From assembly GCA_013288485.1 (NCBI GenBank), contig JABDBW010000010.1:1-46663 (forward strand): 46,663 nucleotides of DNA, written 5' to 3'. Positions 354 to 23,456 of this stretch are shown one piece after another. This DNA is from Bacteroidota bacterium. Its GTDB lineage: Bacteria > Bacteroidota > Bacteroidia > Sphingobacteriales > Sphingobacteriaceae. Numbering within the stretch: position 1 is the stretch's first letter; every line of letters begins with the position of its first letter. A program made the translations under genes and the position numbers. The notes below the pieces were generated by a model. It worked only from the letters and a program-made list of their open reading frames with translations. It did no database searches and had not been told where the DNA came from.

Positions 354-366
354 CTCGTCTCTAGTG

Positions 367-500
367 CGTCATTGCGAGGAACGAAGCAATCTCTTCATAG
401 GACAGTCGGCAAGAGTTTACTATTTTTAGTTTAAACTCTTAATAAAATTTTTCTTGTTTGATTAGCAAGTGTAGAGATTGCTTCGTTCCTCGCAATGACG
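367..500. repeat. 134-bp element with perfect 28-bp inverted ends
   Basis: Bases 367-394 (core GCGAGGAACGAAGCAATC) and 473-500 are exact reverse complements over 28 bp. A nested inverted repeat lies inside (AAGAGTTTA 411-419 against TAAACTCTT 432-440). There is no ORF. The element fills the gap between the convergent DUF1501 and hisS genes, so it could fold as a two-way transcription stop. A 20-bp part of the arm recurs at 6408-6427, which marks it as a dispersed family, MITE- or BIME-like. Confidence 0.85.
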
Positions 501-17350: not shown

Positions 17351-17773
17351 TTATTCCGAGTAATTTTTTAGAAACTCATCTGCTGAGTAGACTGGTAAAG
17401 AAGGAATAGCTAATTGTTGCAAGTGTTTATCGCGAGTAATAAAAAAATCCATCTTGTGATGTAATGCAGTATAATATTGAAGTGCATCTTCTATATCAGC
17501 CATAGCAGAATTTAGTGCATTAATAGTTACGGTATGGTTGCAGTCAATAACTTGAATATCGGTTAATAATTCTAAAAGTATTTTTTTTGCTTTATTGTTT
17601 CCGTAACTTTTGCTCAACCAATAGCCTGTTATATGTACAATAGAAGGCGTTACAAATGCCTGAAATTCTCCATCAATAATACATTGTATCAATTGTTTAG
17701 ATATTTCAAACTTTTCTCTTTTCAGCGTGAAATCCAGTAAAATATTGGCATCTAAGAAAATTTTAAAAGCCAT
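17351..17773 (-). CDS. PIN domain toxin (VapC-like)
   Basis: A 140-aa PIN-domain ribonuclease. The acidic active-site residues are present: Asp8 in MAFKIFLDANILLDF, Glu95/Asp96 in MADIEDALQYYTAL, and Asp115 in FFITRDKHL. In characterised VapC toxins this site cuts tRNA or rRNA. The start overlaps the end of the upstream antitoxin gene by 11 bp, the usual arrangement of a type II toxin-antitoxin pair. Target unknown. Its composition is more AT-rich than the flanking thrC, consistent with a mobile module. Confidence 0.88.
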   Translation of the reverse strand: MAFKIFLDANILLDFTLKREKFEISKQLIQCIIDGEFQAFVTPSIVHITGYWLSKSYGNNKAKKILLELLTDIQVIDCNHTVTINALNSAMADIEDALQYYTALHHKMDFFITRDKHLQQLAIPSLPVYSADEFLKNYSE

Positions 17774-18005
17774 ATTTGGATGATTGTTGCTCGTAAAAAT
17801 CTTTTTTCAAGTCTATATTTTCTTCGATTTTCGGTTTCTCTAAACTTTCTATCAGGTTAATGATATTAGATTTTTTTACCGGGCGAACAACTTTGCTAAA
17901 ATACTCTTCAACCAAATCGGAGACACTGGTTTGTCTTTTTTCAGCATAAGCTTTTATTTGCTTAACCAGATCTTTTTCTATAGATAAATTCACATGCGTT
18001 TTCAT
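17763..18005 (-). CDS. Antitoxin of the PIN pair, ribbon-helix-helix (DUF6364-like)
   Basis: An 80-aa protein. MKTHVNLSIEKDLVKQIKAYAEKRQTSVSDLVEEYF is a ribbon-helix-helix DNA-binding domain: a strand, then two helices with the Ser-Val-Ser turn. The Lys/Glu-rich C-terminal half (EKPKIEENIDLKKDFYEQQS) should wrap the toxin. The ATG at 18005 is preferred over an in-frame TTG at 18011. It is the first gene of the operon, and an inverted repeat just upstream is a likely autoregulatory site. Confidence 0.85.
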   Translation of the reverse strand: MKTHVNLSIEKDLVKQIKAYAEKRQTSVSDLVEEYFSKVVRPVKKSNIINLIESLEKPKIEENIDLKKDFYEQQSSKYGF

Positions 18006-18010
18006 ATTCA

Positions 18011-18026
18011 AATATACGCATATATT
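18011..18026. promoter_or_regulatory. Possible operator of the toxin-antitoxin operon
   Basis: AATATA-CGCA-TATATT: perfect 6-bp arms with a 4-bp centre, 6 bp before the antitoxin ATG. RHH antitoxins usually bind such palindromes to repress their own operon. AT-rich, so chance is possible. Confidence 0.4.
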
Positions 18027-18052: not shown

Positions 18053-19363
18053 TTAATTATTCTTCAACAAATACTTCTTGAACCCTTCAAAATCTTTACC
18101 CAATTCAACTGAGTGTTTAGTCTTGGTATGTAATGATCTTACCTGTTCAGGAATTTCTATATGGCTGGCGATCTCATCCGGGAAAACATCCGGGAACTTG
18201 CAGGGGTGCGCAGTTGATAAAAATATTCCGGCGGTATCATCAACGTGAACATCCTGCTGGTAATCTTTCAAAGCCTGCCATGCAATAGCGGTGTGCGGAC
18301 AAACCACATAGTTATAACGATCGAAAACCGCATGTATAGCTTTTAAAGTTTCTGCATCATCAAAGCTGTAACCGGTTACCAGGTTTTTTAACTGGTTCAT
18401 ATCTTCTTTAAAAAGATCGGCAATGCGCACCCAGTTACTGGGATTACCCACATCCATCGCGTTTGACAGAGTTGCTACCGATGGTTTAGGCTGGTAAACC
18501 CCTGTAGTTAAAAACTGTGGAACAGTATCATTGGCATTGGTGGCGGCAATAAAACGCTCAACCGGCAAACCCATTTTCCACGCCAGCAACCCCGCGCCAA
18601 GGTTGCCAAAATTACCGCTGGGAACAGAAAATACTACCTTGCCTTTACCCAGCTTAAGCAATTGCGCGTACGCGTTAAAATAGTAAAAGGTTTGTGGTAT
18701 CAACCGAGCTATATTAATGGAGTTGGCCGATGTTAAACGATACTTCTCATTTAGCTCTTTATCGGTAAATGCTTGTTTAACCAGGGCCTGGCAATCATCA
18801 AAAGTACCGTCAATTTCAAGGGCCCGTATGTTTTGTCCGTTAGTTGTTAACTGTAGTTCCTGTATATCGCTTACCTTGCCTTTAGGGTAAAGTATGGTAA
18901 CCCGGGTATTGGGTACGCCCAAAAAACCCAAAGCTACCGCACCGCCCGTATCGCCCGATGTTGCCACCAGTACATCCAGTTGTTTTTCGCCTTCTTCTAA
19001 AAAATAGCTCATTACCCGGCTCATAAAGCGAGCGCCAAAGTCTTTAAACGCTAACGACGGCCCGTGAAAAAGCTCCAGTACATAAACATTCTCTTCCAGC
19101 TTAACTATGGGCGCGTAAAAGTTGATGGCGTCGTATATAATCGTTTTCAGATCATCAGCAGGAATATCATCACCCAATAAATTTTGTGCTACATGCAAAG
19201 CTATTTCGGGCAGGGTGTAGCTATCCAGGTTGTTGATAAATTTATCATCCAAACGAGGAATATTAACGGGCATATATAAACCCTTATCCTGCGGCATACT
19301 GTTAAAAACCGCGTCCTTGAAAGATACCCTTGATGAGGTGTTATTGGTACTGTAGAATTTCAT
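18053..19363 (-). CDS. thrC: Threonine synthase
   Basis: PLP enzyme that turns O-phosphohomoserine into threonine, the last step of the pathway. The 436-aa length fits the bacterial short form. MKFYSTNNTSSRVSFKDAVFNS is a family N-terminus; LELFHGPSLAFKDFGARFM carries the PLP Lys; ATSGDTGGAVALGFLG and SVPSGNFGNLGAGLLA bind the cofactor phosphate. It is the last gene of thrA-thrB-thrC; the 62-bp gap to thrB holds a decayed piece of the TTCGAAT-type repeat. Regulation is expected from the attenuator upstream of thrA. Confidence 0.96.
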   Translation of the reverse strand: MKFYSTNNTSSRVSFKDAVFNSMPQDKGLYMPVNIPRLDDKFINNLDSYTLPEIALHVAQNLLGDDIPADDLKTIIYDAINFYAPIVKLEENVYVLELFHGPSLAFKDFGARFMSRVMSYFLEEGEKQLDVLVATSGDTGGAVALGFLGVPNTRVTILYPKGKVSDIQELQLTTNGQNIRALEIDGTFDDCQALVKQAFTDKELNEKYRLTSANSINIARLIPQTFYYFNAYAQLLKLGKGKVVFSVPSGNFGNLGAGLLAWKMGLPVERFIAATNANDTVPQFLTTGVYQPKPSVATLSNAMDVGNPSNWVRIADLFKEDMNQLKNLVTGYSFDDAETLKAIHAVFDRYNYVVCPHTAIAWQALKDYQQDVHVDDTAGIFLSTAHPCKFPDVFPDEIASHIEIPEQVRSLHTKTKHSVELGKDFEGFKKYLLKNN

Positions 19364-19425: not shown

Positions 19426-20430
19426 TTACCCTATCACCCTCGGCCCTGCATCATTAATTGTTGAAACGTAGGTATTCGATCCAATTTTTATATGGGTTAA
19501 ATGCTGTTGCAGCTTTTGGGTGACCTGTCGTGCAGTTTCCTCATCGCGGGTAAACGCGAATACGGAGGGGCCCGAACCGGAAATACCAAAGCTTACTGCA
19601 CCAAGTTCCATGGCCATTTCGCGCATTTTGTAAAAATCAGGTATTAGCATGGAGCGTACCGGCTCAACCAGTACATCCTGCATACTTCGGCCTATCAGGT
19701 CAATATCGCCCATAAACAATCCGCTAACCAAGCCTGCAATATTACCCCATTGGATAACCGCGTCTTTCATCAATATTTTGTTACGGATGATCTGCCTGGC
19801 CTCGCGGGTAGGCACATCCACCTCAGGAAAAACAATGGCGCAATACAAGCCTTCGGGATGTGGCAAACGTATCACATCAAGCGGTTCATAGCTGCGTATC
19901 AGTACAAAACCGCCAAACAAAGCAGGGGCAACATTATCCGCATGGCCGTACCCGCAGGCCATTTCTTCACCCTTCATGGCAAACGGTAATAACTTTATGG
20001 GGGAAACATTGTCGCCCAGCAAAGTTTTGGCAGCAAATAAACCCGCCACCGTGCTTGCCGAGCTTGAACCCAAACCGCTGCCGATGGGCATTTTTTTATT
20101 CAGCTCAATATCAAGGCCAAGGTCGGCACGGCCAATACTTTGCAGGTAGTGCATTACACTTACGCTTACCGTATTTTTAGTCGGGTCAAGCGGGAGGCGC
20201 CCGTCGTCACCGGTAATTTTACTGATGGTGATGCCCGGCTTGTTGGTAACACGCATAATCACCTCGTCGCCAGGCTCATTAACGGCGAAACCCAGCACGT
20301 CAAATCCGCATACCACGTTGGCTACAGTTGCAGGGGCAAAAACCTGGATACTGTCGCCTATGCCCCCCCCGCCTGCTAAAGAGGGTACTTTTTTAGTGGA
20401 TGTTTTTAAATCATGTATATTGTCTTCCAT
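19426..20430 (-). CDS. thrB: Homoserine kinase
   Basis: GHMP-family kinase that phosphorylates homoserine. The ATP loop PIGSGLGSSSASTVAG is intact. SIQVFAPATVANVVCGFDVL opens the fold, and GAVSFGISGSGPSVFAF is the C-terminal GHMP motif. The protein is 334 aa, somewhat longer than the usual 310 because of an N-terminal extension of about 27 residues (MEDNIHDLKTSTKKVPSLAG); a later start is possible but no ATG is available there. It lies 45 bp after thrA and 62 bp before thrC. Confidence 0.95.
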   Translation of the reverse strand: MEDNIHDLKTSTKKVPSLAGGGGIGDSIQVFAPATVANVVCGFDVLGFAVNEPGDEVIMRVTNKPGITISKITGDDGRLPLDPTKNTVSVSVMHYLQSIGRADLGLDIELNKKMPIGSGLGSSSASTVAGLFAAKTLLGDNVSPIKLLPFAMKGEEMACGYGHADNVAPALFGGFVLIRSYEPLDVIRLPHPEGLYCAIVFPEVDVPTREARQIIRNKILMKDAVIQWGNIAGLVSGLFMGDIDLIGRSMQDVLVEPVRSMLIPDFYKMREMAMELGAVSFGISGSGPSVFAFTRDEETARQVTQKLQQHLTHIKIGSNTYVSTINDAGPRVIG

Positions 20431-20475: not shown

Positions 20476-22938
20476 TTAGTTGGCCCCTACATTTATCAAA
20501 TCTGCAAATACGCCTGCGGCGGTTACCTCGGCGCCCGCGCCGGGGCCCTTCACTACCAGCGGGCGGTCTTTATACCTGTCGGTAGTGAACGAAATAATAT
20601 TATCGCTGCCAGATAAGGTATAAAAAGGGTGGTTCTCATCAACCATTTCAAGGGTGATAGAGGCCTTGCCGTCTTCCAGTTTGCCTATATATCTTAAAAC
20701 TTTATTTTCGGCATCGGCCCGGTTTTTTATGCCGGCAAAGTAAGCGTCCTCAGTTTTTAGTGTTTTATAAAAGTCTTCCACGCTGGTTGCATCCAGGCAA
20801 GCCTGCGGCAGCATACTCTGTACAGAAATATCTGCTGCTTCCAGCGTGTATCCCGCGTCGCGGGCCAATATCAGCATTTTACGCATAAAATCGGTGCCAC
20901 GCAGGTCATCACGCGGGTCGGGTTCGGTATAACCGTTTTGCTGCGCCAGCTTTACCGTATCATGAAAATTGGCGCTGCCTTTAAAGTTATTGAACAAAAA
21001 CGATATGGTACCAGAAAGTATGGCCTCAATTTTCTGCACCCTGTCTCCGCTGTTCATCAGGTCTTTTAAAGTGCGGATAATAGGCAGCCCGGCACCAACA
21101 TTGGTTTCGTAGAAAAAGTCAACCCCGTGCTGGCGCGCCACGTCCCTGAAATCGCGGTACCTGCTGTAGGGCCCCGAATTACCAATTTTATTGCAGGTTA
21201 CAATGGATATGGTTGATTTAAACACCTCTCCGTAAAACTCAATTGGCTTCGGGCTGGCGGTATTGTCAATAAAAACACAGTTGGGCAAATTCAGGCTTTT
21301 CATTTTTGTGATGAACACCTGCAGATCGGCCTTTTCATGCGATTGGTTTAAAATTTCTTCCCAATTATCTAAGGATATACCATCTGTATCAAAAACCATT
21401 TTACGGGTATTGCTAATGCCCACTATTTTAACCTGTATGCCGTTGTTGTCCTGCAAAAAAGTGGTATGCGCGTTCAATTGTTTAAATAGTGTTTTGCCAA
21501 TGTTGCCTGTTCCTAAACAAAAAGCGTGAAGGGTTTTGGTGAGTTGAACAAAAAAGGCGTCATGCACAGCGTTTAATGCTTTCGCCAGGTCATTCGAGGA
21601 GATAATAACCGAAATATTATATTCTGACGATCCCTGTGCGATTGCCCTTACATTTACACCATTACGGCCCAATGAATGAAATAATTTGCCCGATACTCCC
21701 GGGGTTTCCTTCATGTTTTCGCCAACCACGGCTAATATGGCCAGGTCTTTTTCTATCTGTACCTCCTCCAGTTTTTTGGCAATCAGCTCCAGTTCAAATT
21801 CCTGCTCAATTAATAAGCGAGCCCTTTCTGTATCGCCGGGCTGTACCGCAAAGGTGATACTATGTTCAGACGAAGACTGTGTTATTAATATCACGTTGAT
21901 CTGCTCGCGCGACAGTAATGAAAACAAACGGCCGCTAAAGCCTGCTTTGCCCACCATTCCGCTGCCCTCAACATTCAATATGCTGATGTTATTGATGGAG
22001 GATATGCCCTTTATAGCCAAATTTGACGGCTTGCAATCATGCCGTATAACAGTTCCCTCAAATTCCGGCTCAAAAGTATTTTTGATAACGATAGGTATCT
22101 GTTTCAAAAACGCCGGGATCATGGTTGGCGGGTAAATAACCTTCGCGCCGAAGTAGGATAATTCCATCGCTTCGGTATAGGTTAGCTCGGGTAATGAAAA
22201 AGCTTTTTTAACCATTCGCGGGTCGGCGGTCATCATGCCGTTAACATCGGTCCATATTTCTATTTCCGACGCGTTAAGTGCCGAGCCGAAAATGGCCGCG
22301 GTATAATCACTCCCCCCGCGCCCCAAAGTAGTTATTTGCCCGGCCTCATTAGCCGCTATAAAGCCGGTTACGAATAGCATTTTACCGTTGTTTTCTTTGT
22401 GAAGGCCGCGTATCAACAATTCAGTAAGTTCAGTATTCACTTTGGCCTGGCCGAAAGAGCTATCAGTTTTTATAACTTCGGATGCATCAACAAAAACAGC
22501 TTCAGGAAAAAACTGGCTGGCTATTTTGCTGATCATTATGGTAGCGCAGCGTTCGCCATAGCTTAATACCAGGTCGCGGGTTTTTGGGGTAAGCTCGCGC
22601 AGGGTTAATATGCCCTGCAGCAATTCTTCTAGCTGGTTAAAGTGAATTTTAAGACGTGTTAATGCCGGGTTCTGATTTTGTATTTCGAGCAGGTTTTTTA
22701 CTATGTCGAAATGGCGCTTTTCCAGCTCTGCTAAAGGCGCGATAAAATCATTGCCAATAGCGGCCCCTTCGGCCATCGACTGCAACAGGTTGGTTACCCC
22801 GCTCATGGCCGATAGTACCACAACCGGTTTATCATTAGCCGATTGTTTAACCTTATCCTCCTTGCGGAGAATGGCTAATAAAGTTTGAATGCTTTGAACC
22901 GAACCTACGGATGTTCCGCCAAATTTTAAAATTTTCAT
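20476..22938 (-). CDS. thrA: Bifunctional aspartokinase / homoserine dehydrogenase
   Basis: Fused enzyme, 820 aa, doing the first and third steps from aspartate towards threonine. The kinase domain opens with MKILKFGGTSVGS and has FVTGFIAANEAGQITTLGRGGSDYTA; two ACT modules follow (NILNVEGSGMVGKAGFSGRL, LAILAVVGENMKETPGVSGKL), which in the family bind threonine for feedback inhibition. The homoserine dehydrogenase half begins near residue 465 (LHAFCLGTGNIGKTLF), with NVGAGLPIIRTL, GYTEPDPRDDLRGTDFMRKM and GPGAGAEVTAAGVFADL. The ATG at 22938 is preferred to an in-frame TTG at 22941. First structural gene of thrABC, behind a leader/attenuator. Confidence 0.97.
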   Translation of the reverse strand: MKILKFGGTSVGSVQSIQTLLAILRKEDKVKQSANDKPVVVLSAMSGVTNLLQSMAEGAAIGNDFIAPLAELEKRHFDIVKNLLEIQNQNPALTRLKIHFNQLEELLQGILTLRELTPKTRDLVLSYGERCATIMISKIASQFFPEAVFVDASEVIKTDSSFGQAKVNTELTELLIRGLHKENNGKMLFVTGFIAANEAGQITTLGRGGSDYTAAIFGSALNASEIEIWTDVNGMMTADPRMVKKAFSLPELTYTEAMELSYFGAKVIYPPTMIPAFLKQIPIVIKNTFEPEFEGTVIRHDCKPSNLAIKGISSINNISILNVEGSGMVGKAGFSGRLFSLLSREQINVILITQSSSEHSITFAVQPGDTERARLLIEQEFELELIAKKLEEVQIEKDLAILAVVGENMKETPGVSGKLFHSLGRNGVNVRAIAQGSSEYNISVIISSNDLAKALNAVHDAFFVQLTKTLHAFCLGTGNIGKTLFKQLNAHTTFLQDNNGIQVKIVGISNTRKMVFDTDGISLDNWEEILNQSHEKADLQVFITKMKSLNLPNCVFIDNTASPKPIEFYGEVFKSTISIVTCNKIGNSGPYSRYRDFRDVARQHGVDFFYETNVGAGLPIIRTLKDLMNSGDRVQKIEAILSGTISFLFNNFKGSANFHDTVKLAQQNGYTEPDPRDDLRGTDFMRKMLILARDAGYTLEAADISVQSMLPQACLDATSVEDFYKTLKTEDAYFAGIKNRADAENKVLRYIGKLEDGKASITLEMVDENHPFYTLSGSDNIISFTTDRYKDRPLVVKGPGAGAEVTAAGVFADLINVGAN

Positions 22939-22965
22939 CAAGTTAATTTTTTATTTAATGGTGAT

Positions 22966-23014
22966 GAAGCTATCATGAGCGATTTTATTTTAAGTTGGTG
23001 CTCATGATGGTTTC
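22966..23014 (-). promoter_or_regulatory. Second hairpin between the attenuator and thrA
   Basis: GAAGCTATCATGAGC (22966-22980) and GCTCATGATGGTTTC (23000-23014) pair as a 9-bp stem plus a 3-bp stem around a 3-nt mismatch, with a 19-nt loop. It lies 28-76 bp before the thrA ATG. No T-run follows, so it is not a terminator; it may stabilise the processed mRNA or affect translation start. Confidence 0.5.
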
Positions 23015-23032
23015 ATTATCAGGTTATTTAAA

Positions 23033-23067
23033 CAAAAAGCGCCTTCCTCTTTGTGGAGGAAAGCGCT
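23033..23067 (-). terminator. Attenuator terminator of the thr operon
   Basis: Read on the minus strand: AGCGCTTTCCTC (23067-23056), loop CACAAA, GAGGAAGGCGCT (23049-23038), then a T-run. All 12 positions pair, one of them G-U. It stands between the Thr-rich leader frame and thrA, so it must be bypassed for thrABC to be expressed. Confidence 0.88.
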
Positions 23068-23103
23068 CATGTGGTTTTTTATTTTATGTTTTACACCATA
23101 CGA

Positions 23104-23166
23104 TTACCTCCCTCCGAGTTTTATCCCGGTGGTAGTAACTGTAGTTGTTGTGGTGATATTGCTCAT
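23104..23166 (-). CDS. thrL: thr operon leader peptide
   Basis: A 20-codon frame, MSNITTTTTVTTTGIKLGGR, with 8 Thr (five in a row, then three) and 2 Ile codons, ending at TAA 23106-23104. Thr-rich leaders of this kind control thr operons by ribosome stalling in enterobacteria, where Thr and Ile codons are also mixed. The last three sense codons (GGA GGG AGG, 23115-23107) can pair over 9 bp with the 5' arm of the downstream terminator (CTTTCCTCC, 23063-23055), giving the anti-terminator expected for this mechanism. It is too short to be found by length-based gene callers. Confidence 0.88.
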   Translation of the reverse strand: MSNITTTTTVTTTGIKLGGR

Positions 23167-23181
23167 TGTTATATAATGCCT

Positions 23182-23213
23182 GTAAAGTAAGTAGATATTT
23201 TTTTAATAAGCAA
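23182..23213 (-). promoter_or_regulatory. Possible promoter of the thr operon
   Basis: Minus strand: TTG (23213-23211), 21-bp spacer, TACTTTAC (23189-23182), two mismatches to TAnnTTTG. It predicts a start about 11 nt before the leader ATG at 23166. Weak match. Confidence 0.35.
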
Positions 23214-23265
23214 GTATAAAATAAAAAAAGTATGGTGGAATATAAAAAAGCCTGCTCATTTGCCC

Positions 23266-23273
23266 TATTTTTG
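23266..23273 (+). promoter_or_regulatory. -7 box of the 58-aa protein gene
   Basis: TATTTTTG matches TAnnTTTG and ends 6 nt before the ATG at 23280, so the mRNA leader would be almost absent. It also argues against the upstream in-frame ATG at 23232. Confidence 0.45.
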
Positions 23274-23279
23274 TACAAA

Positions 23280-23456
23280 ATGAAAAGGAAGGCGTTAATA
23301 TCAGACGATAAGCTATTTGAAGAGAAAAGAAAAGCTATTGAAGAACAAATTAGAAAAGAGGTAATGCTATTAAAGGAGTTTGATCCGGACGAAGAATTGA
23401 AAAAAGAGTTTGAGTACGCTTCATTAGTTGATTTACAAAAGTATTTGGATGATTAA
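23280..23456 (+). CDS. Small charged helical protein, 58 aa
   Basis: No family recognised. MKRKALISDDKLFEEKRK begins a stretch of alternating Lys/Glu that should form one long amphipathic helix or coiled coil, ending in the acidic DLQKYLDD. An upstream ATG at 23232 would add 16 residues, but a -7 promoter box lies inside that extension. It lies 30 bp before rsgA in the same direction and could share its transcript. Cytoplasmic by composition. The short length and lack of domain leave its role open. Confidence 0.6.
   Translation: MKRKALISDDKLFEEKRKAIEEQIRKEVMLLKEFDPDEELKKEFEYASLVDLQKYLDD

Follow-up and report, generated by a model that had tools for sequence, protein, structure and literature searches.

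A threonine attenuator of the thrL kind predicted upstream of thrABC in Sphingobacteriaceae

The closest described system is the threonine attenuator of Escherichia coli, thrL (NC_000913; L164 among our loci), in which a leader rich in Thr and Ile codons is followed by thrABC, and the fold of the leader RNA contains a 1:2 hairpin and a terminator hairpin. A 2004 survey by Vitreschak et al. reportedly lists threonine attenuators and mentions Bacteroidetes/Chlorobi, counting Bacteroidetes as a group with candidate attenuators. Leader-peptide attenuators have been suggested to be gamma-proteobacterial in origin, with very few transfers, in the accessible text of one study (PMC3766115). Within Bacteroidota, strong indications that leader peptides attenuate amino-acid biosynthesis operons are reported for Flavobacterium psychrophilum (PMC9723704), the 5' UTRs of Bacteroides thetaiotaomicron contain leader-like sORFs with hints of leader-peptide attenuation (PMC7366714), and a trp-named RNA motif, Bacteroid-trp, is listed for Bacteroidetes (PMC2864571). 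These reports concern the same phylum as the locus described here; the accessible text on F. psychrophilum names neither a threonine operon nor an antiterminator, and threonine is absent from the main text of the other two. Our search of the accessible literature found no description of such an element in Sphingobacteriaceae. The original prediction had remarked that such control is little described in Bacteroidota; similar control has been inferred in F. psychrophilum.

We analyzed a 46,663-nucleotide stretch of Sphingobacteriaceae DNA (the window), whose thrABC operon is preceded by the same arrangement as in E. coli: a Thr/Ile leader, the 1:2 and terminator hairpins in the fold, and thrABC downstream. 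In both, strand 2 is written into the final three sense codons of the leader, which form 9 bp with the 5' side of the terminator; in thrL these codons are GGT GCG GGC and their partner is GCCCGCACC. Since E. coli thrL has the same arrangement, the overlap between antiterminator and leader end is classic. The original prediction was correct that the end of the leader encodes the antiterminator strand, and overstated the novelty of this overlap. Read from its sequence, the window element would work like thrL, ordinary in kind and new for these genera.

The two elements differ in sequence. The Rfam model of the threonine leader (RF00506) scores 122 bits on E. coli thrL, whereas on the window it scores 26.3 bits over the full model length, below the gathering threshold of 55; the window element does not pass as a member of this family. 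Among eight relatives tried, three matched (L064 at 37.7, L092 at 33.7 and L083 at 28.4 bits), so that of nine such leaders, window included, four match at 26 to 38 bits and five are unmatched at the E-value used. Conversely, R1, the covariance model of our alignment A1 (60 sequences, less than 93% alike), scores 32.4 bits on E. coli thrL. The ThrA proteins of the window and E. coli are 37% identical, and therefore nothing suggests a recent transfer. We set aside a transfer of the operon from enterobacteria on this identity and on the position of the window ThrA, which falls in a fully supported clade with the family and L178. In the ThrA tree, E. coli, the sole enterobacterial sequence, joins a second ThrA-like copy of genome G104 (L191) with support 0.56. 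The likeness to the enterobacterial attenuator may reflect convergence or a deep common origin.

The thrABC leader region of the window

The operon lies on the minus strand and comprises thrA (fused aspartokinase-homoserine dehydrogenase I, 20476-22938; NF006959, 1033 bits against a cut-off of 726), thrB (homoserine kinase, 19426-20430; TIGR00191, 219 bits against 168) and thrC (threonine synthase, 18053-19363; TIGR00260, 301 bits against 167). We take the source to be a Mucilaginibacter, the genus of its closest named relatives. The next larger gene upstream of the leader, rsgA, is divergent, and the terminator described below is therefore not the end of an upstream operon.

The threonine leader ORF (23104-23166, minus strand; ATG at 23166, stop codon TAA at 23106-23104; MSNITTTTTVTTTGIKLGGR) has 8 Thr and 2 Ile codons among its 20. 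Among 3000 order-1 Markov copies of the intergenic DNA, 13 contained a 19-codon stretch with at least 8 Thr and none contained one with 9; by the same measure the real DNA has 9, as the count takes in an in-frame Thr codon 5' of the ATG. The run of Thr codons is strand 1 and forms the 5' side of a protector hairpin (strands 1:2; 23094-23155, minus strand), in which the Thr codons are paired with the leader end and the stretch after the stop codon. Strand 2, the strand of the antiterminator, consists of the last three sense codons of the leader (GGAGGGAGG; 23107-23115, minus strand). It pairs over 9 bp, two of them G-U, with strand 3 (CTTTCCTCC; 23055-23063, minus strand), which belongs to the 5' arm of the terminator and can have strand 2 or strand 4, the terminator 3' arm, as its partner; the 2:3 pairing was equalled by 1.5% of 200 shuffles of the strand 2 region. 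The predicted intrinsic terminator (3:4; 23034-23067, minus strand), identified by its computed stem and its covariation, has a 12-bp stem with one U-G pair (5' arm 23067-23056, loop 23055-23050, 3' arm 23049-23038), ends in five Ts (23038-23034) and has an energy of -22.8 kcal/mol, outer pairs included.

The original prediction had described the leader frame, the terminator between leader and thrA, and the 2:3 pairing. The coordinates of the frame and the pairing, G-U pairs included, proved exact to the base, the Thr content is above chance, and the stem and its T run are read directly. Its description needed two corrections: the ATG of thrA is at 22938, and the 1:2 hairpin (23155-23094), which completes the four-strand scheme, had been missed.

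Upstream of the leader we found CTTG (23211-23214, minus strand), which we take to be a promoter-like -33 element of the Bacteroidota type, and, 21 nt 3' of it, a promoter-like -7 element (TACTTTAC; 23182-23189, minus strand). Boxes resembling the putative -33 element also occur upstream of Mucilaginibacter leaders. From these positions, transcription would start roughly 10-16 nt 5' of the leader ATG. On the other side, the interval between the attenuator and thrA holds a 78-nt stretch with an inverted repeat (22939-23016, minus strand), which is not part of the switch. The 249-nt region 23190-22942, which includes the hairpin of this insert, folds with z = -6.6, and 0 of 200 shuffles were as stable.

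We consider it very probable that this element is a ribosome-mediated transcription attenuator of thrABC, with a four-strand anatomy like that of E. coli thrL and a predicted response to threonine. In the course of events that we infer, RNA polymerase would start shortly 5' of the leader and a ribosome behind it would translate the Thr/Ile-rich frame. With charged Thr-tRNA (and Ile-tRNA) in ample supply, the ribosome at the stop codon would cover strand 2 and the 3:4 terminator would form. With Thr (or Ile) scarce, the ribosome would stall in the run of Thr codons and leave strand 2 free; lying mostly 10-12 nt past the last Thr codon, strand 2 would take strand 3 before strand 4 is made, and transcription would proceed into thrABC. 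Without any ribosome, the 1:2 hairpin would mask strand 2 and the terminator would form.

Folding of these states, with the footprint of the ribosome reaching 12 nt from its A site, gave the corresponding structures. With the ribosome on the last Thr codon, 2:3 is in the best fold, at -24.3 kcal/mol, before strand 4 is made, and remains in it afterwards; with the ribosome at the stop codon the terminator is left; and with no ribosome the fold has 1:2 and the terminator. The two systems differ here: under a stalled ribosome covering 12 nt, and with strand 4 made, the window antiterminator stays in the best fold whereas that of E. coli does not. As in attenuators of the thrL type, the window has, ahead of the operon, a short ORF in which codons for the end product abound, a computed intrinsic terminator before the first gene, an antiterminator that excludes the terminator and whose strand 2 is covered by the ribosome at the stop codon and free when it is at the control codons, and a protector hairpin that excludes the antiterminator.

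Conservation and pairing across Sphingobacteriaceae

Relatives came from two sets. The named set consisted of 63 thrA loci from the species genome collection, reduced to 61 by dropping L003 and L057, which lack the 5' end of thrA. The family set of 81 genomes yielded 65 full-length ThrA matches, 58 of them at least 63% identical to the window ThrA, and 40 upstream stretches were taken from it, 36 with ThrA at least 63% identical and 4 with ThrA at 46-50%. Counts from the two sets overlap, as some genomes are identical (L065 reads like L042). The original prediction had looked to relatives for conservation of the Thr-rich frame, and this was borne out: a Thr/Ile-rich leader is present in all 61 named loci having the thrA 5' end, with 4-9 Thr in each, and in 36 of the 40 further family loci, that is, in every one with at least 63% ThrA identity. 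Three of the divergent loci (L100, L101 and L103) gave no Thr leader in the scan, and the fourth, L102, has a leader of a different type. Among all 119 loci with a leader score of at least 5, 96 passed the terminator script; the 23 failures were L080 and L085, which have the hairpin and a poor T run, and 21 loci of other types.

R1 matched upstream of thrA in all 58 family genomes with at least 63% ThrA identity, scoring at least 61 bits in 57 of them and 49.2 bits in G037; by their handles, 34 of these 58 had already gone into the model, and some of the rest may be identical to named loci included there. The remaining matches among those listed reached at most 51.8 bits and were located elsewhere than upstream of thrA, and in the window's own genome the next match among those listed scored 42 bits. 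Among 148 genomes of the phylum, R1 gave no convincing match outside the family, the best (49.4 bits) being at noise level. Judged by sequence, the threonine attenuator appears complete and consistently conserved within its ThrA clade.

Two loci carried additional features. L104 (genome G086), whose ThrA is 60% identical, has a leader, MTTIMSIMGDVQSWR, in which Met codons accompany those for Thr and Ile, a hint that methionine may share in the control; this leader ends in GGAGG, is accompanied by a CUUCCUCC hairpin and scores 29.8 bits with R1. In L072, a Thr leader of the window's kind is preceded at a distance of about 100 nt by a Flavo-1 RNA match (362-446, minus strand; 50 bits, cut-off 42).

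The end of the leader is conserved as RNA. The exact heptamer GGAGGAA occurs there in 73 of 96 loci, the window having the variant GGAGGGA in frame 0. The heptamer is read in frame 0 in 56 of the 73 loci (peptides ending in GGR, GGS, GGK etc.), in frame 1 in 13 (RRK), nine of which are named Sphingobacterium loci, and in frame 2 in four (EEG or EER). Because it is read in all three frames, it is the RNA and not the peptide end that is conserved. The original prediction had proposed that RNA pairing dictates the Gly-Gly-Arg end of the window peptide, and this reading holds, relatives encoding GGR, RRK or EEG with the same RNA. One strand kept in three frames is a clear natural demonstration that RNA pairing alone can set how a leader peptide ends. 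L084 lacks two single bases relative to its sister locus L088, and the first of these gaps truncates the frame; the strand 2 helix ends 11 nt past the early stop, where a ribosome at that stop would still reach it.

The two Thr codons nearest the leader end face strand 2 within the 1:2 hairpin, and 94 of these 120 codons are ACC; the remaining 238 Thr codons are ACA (104), ACC (68), ACT (41) or ACG (25). Given the position opposite strand 2, pairing may also constrain the control codons. The gap between the last Thr codon and strand 2 has quartiles of 10, 11 and 12 nt, with a range of 0-17.

In alignment A1, changes on both sides affect 9 of the 12 terminator pairs and 11 of the 23 pairs of the protector hairpin. 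Paired cells make up 96.5% in the terminator, and 77% and 67% in the two helices of the protector. Taken jointly, the 1:2 and 3:4 helices have 79.1% of their cells paired, and sliding the 3' partners lowers this to 43-50%. None of 500 shuffles equalled the 127 double-change cells (67 in shuffles) or the covariation score of 0.228 (0.153 in shuffles). Double changes occur in 20 of the 35 pairs, however, which does not exceed the 17.9 of shuffles, 112 of the 500 reaching that number. Without the terminator, the leader has modest stability (median z of -2.2 over the 60 sequences), and L071 and L086 lie above 0. An alternative is that the terminator, which as a hairpin would terminate by itself, is constitutive or kept for another purpose, such as lowering thr expression, with the Thr-rich frame left untranslated. 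We regard this as improbable: the Thr/Ile-rich frame is kept in 61 of 61 named loci with Thr codons that are varied outside the last two, a sign of selection acting on the amino acid; strand 2 is kept in three frames near the stop codon, and the 1:2 hairpin covaries.

Column covariation of the antiterminator is weak (3 of 9 pairs against 3.6 in shuffles; 18 cells against 12.5), and 82.6% of its cells are paired, against 79.2% in shuffles and 49-65% when slid; the alignment used for 2:3 places RRK-type leaders one column off. RNAalifold, applied to the full set of 60, returned the terminator alone, because strand 2 is out of register between frames. The covariation that the original prediction had looked for is found, by cells and score, in the terminator and protector hairpin together, and is weak in the antiterminator columns. 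On balance, the comparisons proposed there mostly favor its interpretation.

Within single loci, the energy of the 2:3 duplex beats shuffles (p<=0.05) in 81 of 96 cases and is no better than shuffles at 0.05 in the other 15 (e.g. L082, L091 and L088). Three classes of changed strand 3, seven loci in all, pair better with their own strand 2 than with that of the main class, for which the first 8 of its 80 loci were used: GUCCCGA (3 loci) at -11.9 against -8.3 kcal/mol, GCCCCCA (2 loci) at -15.5 against -7.4, and CUUCUCUC (2 loci) at -14.8 against -11.3. The specificity of the 2:3 pairing is not complete. G-rich strand 2s are promiscuous, that of L097 pairing with GCCCCCA at -15.6 kcal/mol against -15.5 for the cognate; strand 2 of the GCCCCCA class pairs with CUUCUCUC at -14.4 kcal/mol; and strand 3 of L098 and L099 prefers strand 2 of L096 (-17.3) over its own (about -12).

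A structurally conserved 1:2 hairpin could also belong to a threonine riboswitch, a T-box or a protein-binding element, in which the sensor would not be a translating ribosome. This is very unlikely: Rfam 15 gave 13 matches in window positions 22800-23400, all far below their cut-offs, with no T-box or other element reaching its own; moreover, the 5' side of the hairpin consists of Thr codons, and the stop codon keeps close to strand 2. We give hardly any weight to control of translation, with the leader governing access to the thrA start: the window's 78 nt with their inverted repeat could fold over this start, but they are missing in the near relative L062, the leader stop lies at most 107 nt from thrA in 49 of 61 named loci, and, by script, 34 of 36 family loci have a hairpin with a T run in the interval from leader to thrA.

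Shared by close relatives, the element seems to be a commonplace means of matching threonine supply to demand, in a phylum from which few such switches have been studied. Now described by a covariance model and by dozens of natural variants, it would provide a clean, testable case of leader-peptide attenuation in Bacteroidota. Since the switch demands a ribosome close behind the polymerase, it would also offer an assay of transcription-translation coupling in the phylum; in the accessible literature, our search found no such test in Bacteroidota.

Other threonine leaders in Bacteroidota

We also took 60 stretches upstream of thrA from outside the family. Nineteen of them, and L102 inside the family, carry a Thr-rich leader of another build. 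For this second kind, 20 loci were picked by eye, all upstream of thrA (L102, L106-L109, L111-L120, L123, L130, L131, L133 and L138): 17 of the 20 outside loci with a score of at least 5 (L122, L160 and L162 being dropped), together with L120, L138 and L102. They have a hairpin that contains or adjoins the stop codon, as in ACCCC-UUA-GGGGU, ACGGG-GUAA-CCCGU and CAACCC-GUUAA-GGGUUG; it is better than shuffles at 0.05 in 16 of the 20, a figure helped by the choice by eye. The motif CAUAUMAUCC follows exactly 3' of the hairpin in 8 of the 20 loci, and a looser form occurs in others. A pattern combining hairpin and motif was run on 28 chosen genomes and matched a single time in each of 10, at thrA in 8 of them; the reversed pattern had no match. 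Of the 20 loci, 18 were compared with Rfam, and the sole match was a tRNA near L138.

In the loci put through the script, all but L120 and L138, no terminator as strong as that of the family was found. In L111, L113 and L114 an A+U-rich hairpin and a T run follow the stop-codon hairpin, and a weak terminator is therefore possible there; at the remaining loci Rho could act. We regard this second kind of leader, as a sequence pattern, as a lead. We also suggest, tentatively and with somewhat more doubt than conviction, that thrA in Bacteroidota is under two unrelated Thr-leader RNAs: the four-strand attenuator of Sphingobacteriaceae, which would have reached independently of the enterobacterial one the same trick of placing strand 2 in the leader end, and a kind found in flavobacteria and other families, with a varying, paired stop-codon hairpin, often CAUAU, and no strong intrinsic terminator. 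If true, both kinds would require coupling of ribosome and polymerase. Bacteroidota ribosomes are reported to sequester the anti-Shine-Dalgarno sequence.

At L160-L162, the matched aspartokinases are without the homoserine dehydrogenase part; their short leaders end in MTR or YTR, with ACGCG(C/T)TAA at the stop codon, and are perhaps a further kind of leader.

Surroundings of the locus

ATGAAA stands at the start of the window's 78-nt stretch (22939-23016) and again just past its end. We searched for this insert as a repeat element and found no further good copy of the 81 bases around it in the available genome (completeness 62%). The interval from the putative leader promoter to rsgA contains a 58-aa frame (23280-23456, plus strand) with no Pfam match; relatives of it are found upstream of thrA in 4 of 63 loci (L004, L048, L006 and L042). 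Directly after thrC, the window encodes a PIN-domain protein and a DUF6364/ribbon-helix-helix partner (17351-18011, minus strand), likely a toxin-antitoxin pair. In a look for other leaders in the same genome, hisG and the better of two ilvD matches proved to lie at contig ends, with no upstream DNA available, the second ilvD match being L174. Finally, REP-like repeats (GCCTCACC...CCCTCTCC...GAGAGG, and variants) are found in the interval between terminator and thrA in L008, L010, L030, L032, L033, L035, L036, L039, L040, L050 and L060, occupying the same place in several Mucilaginibacter species.
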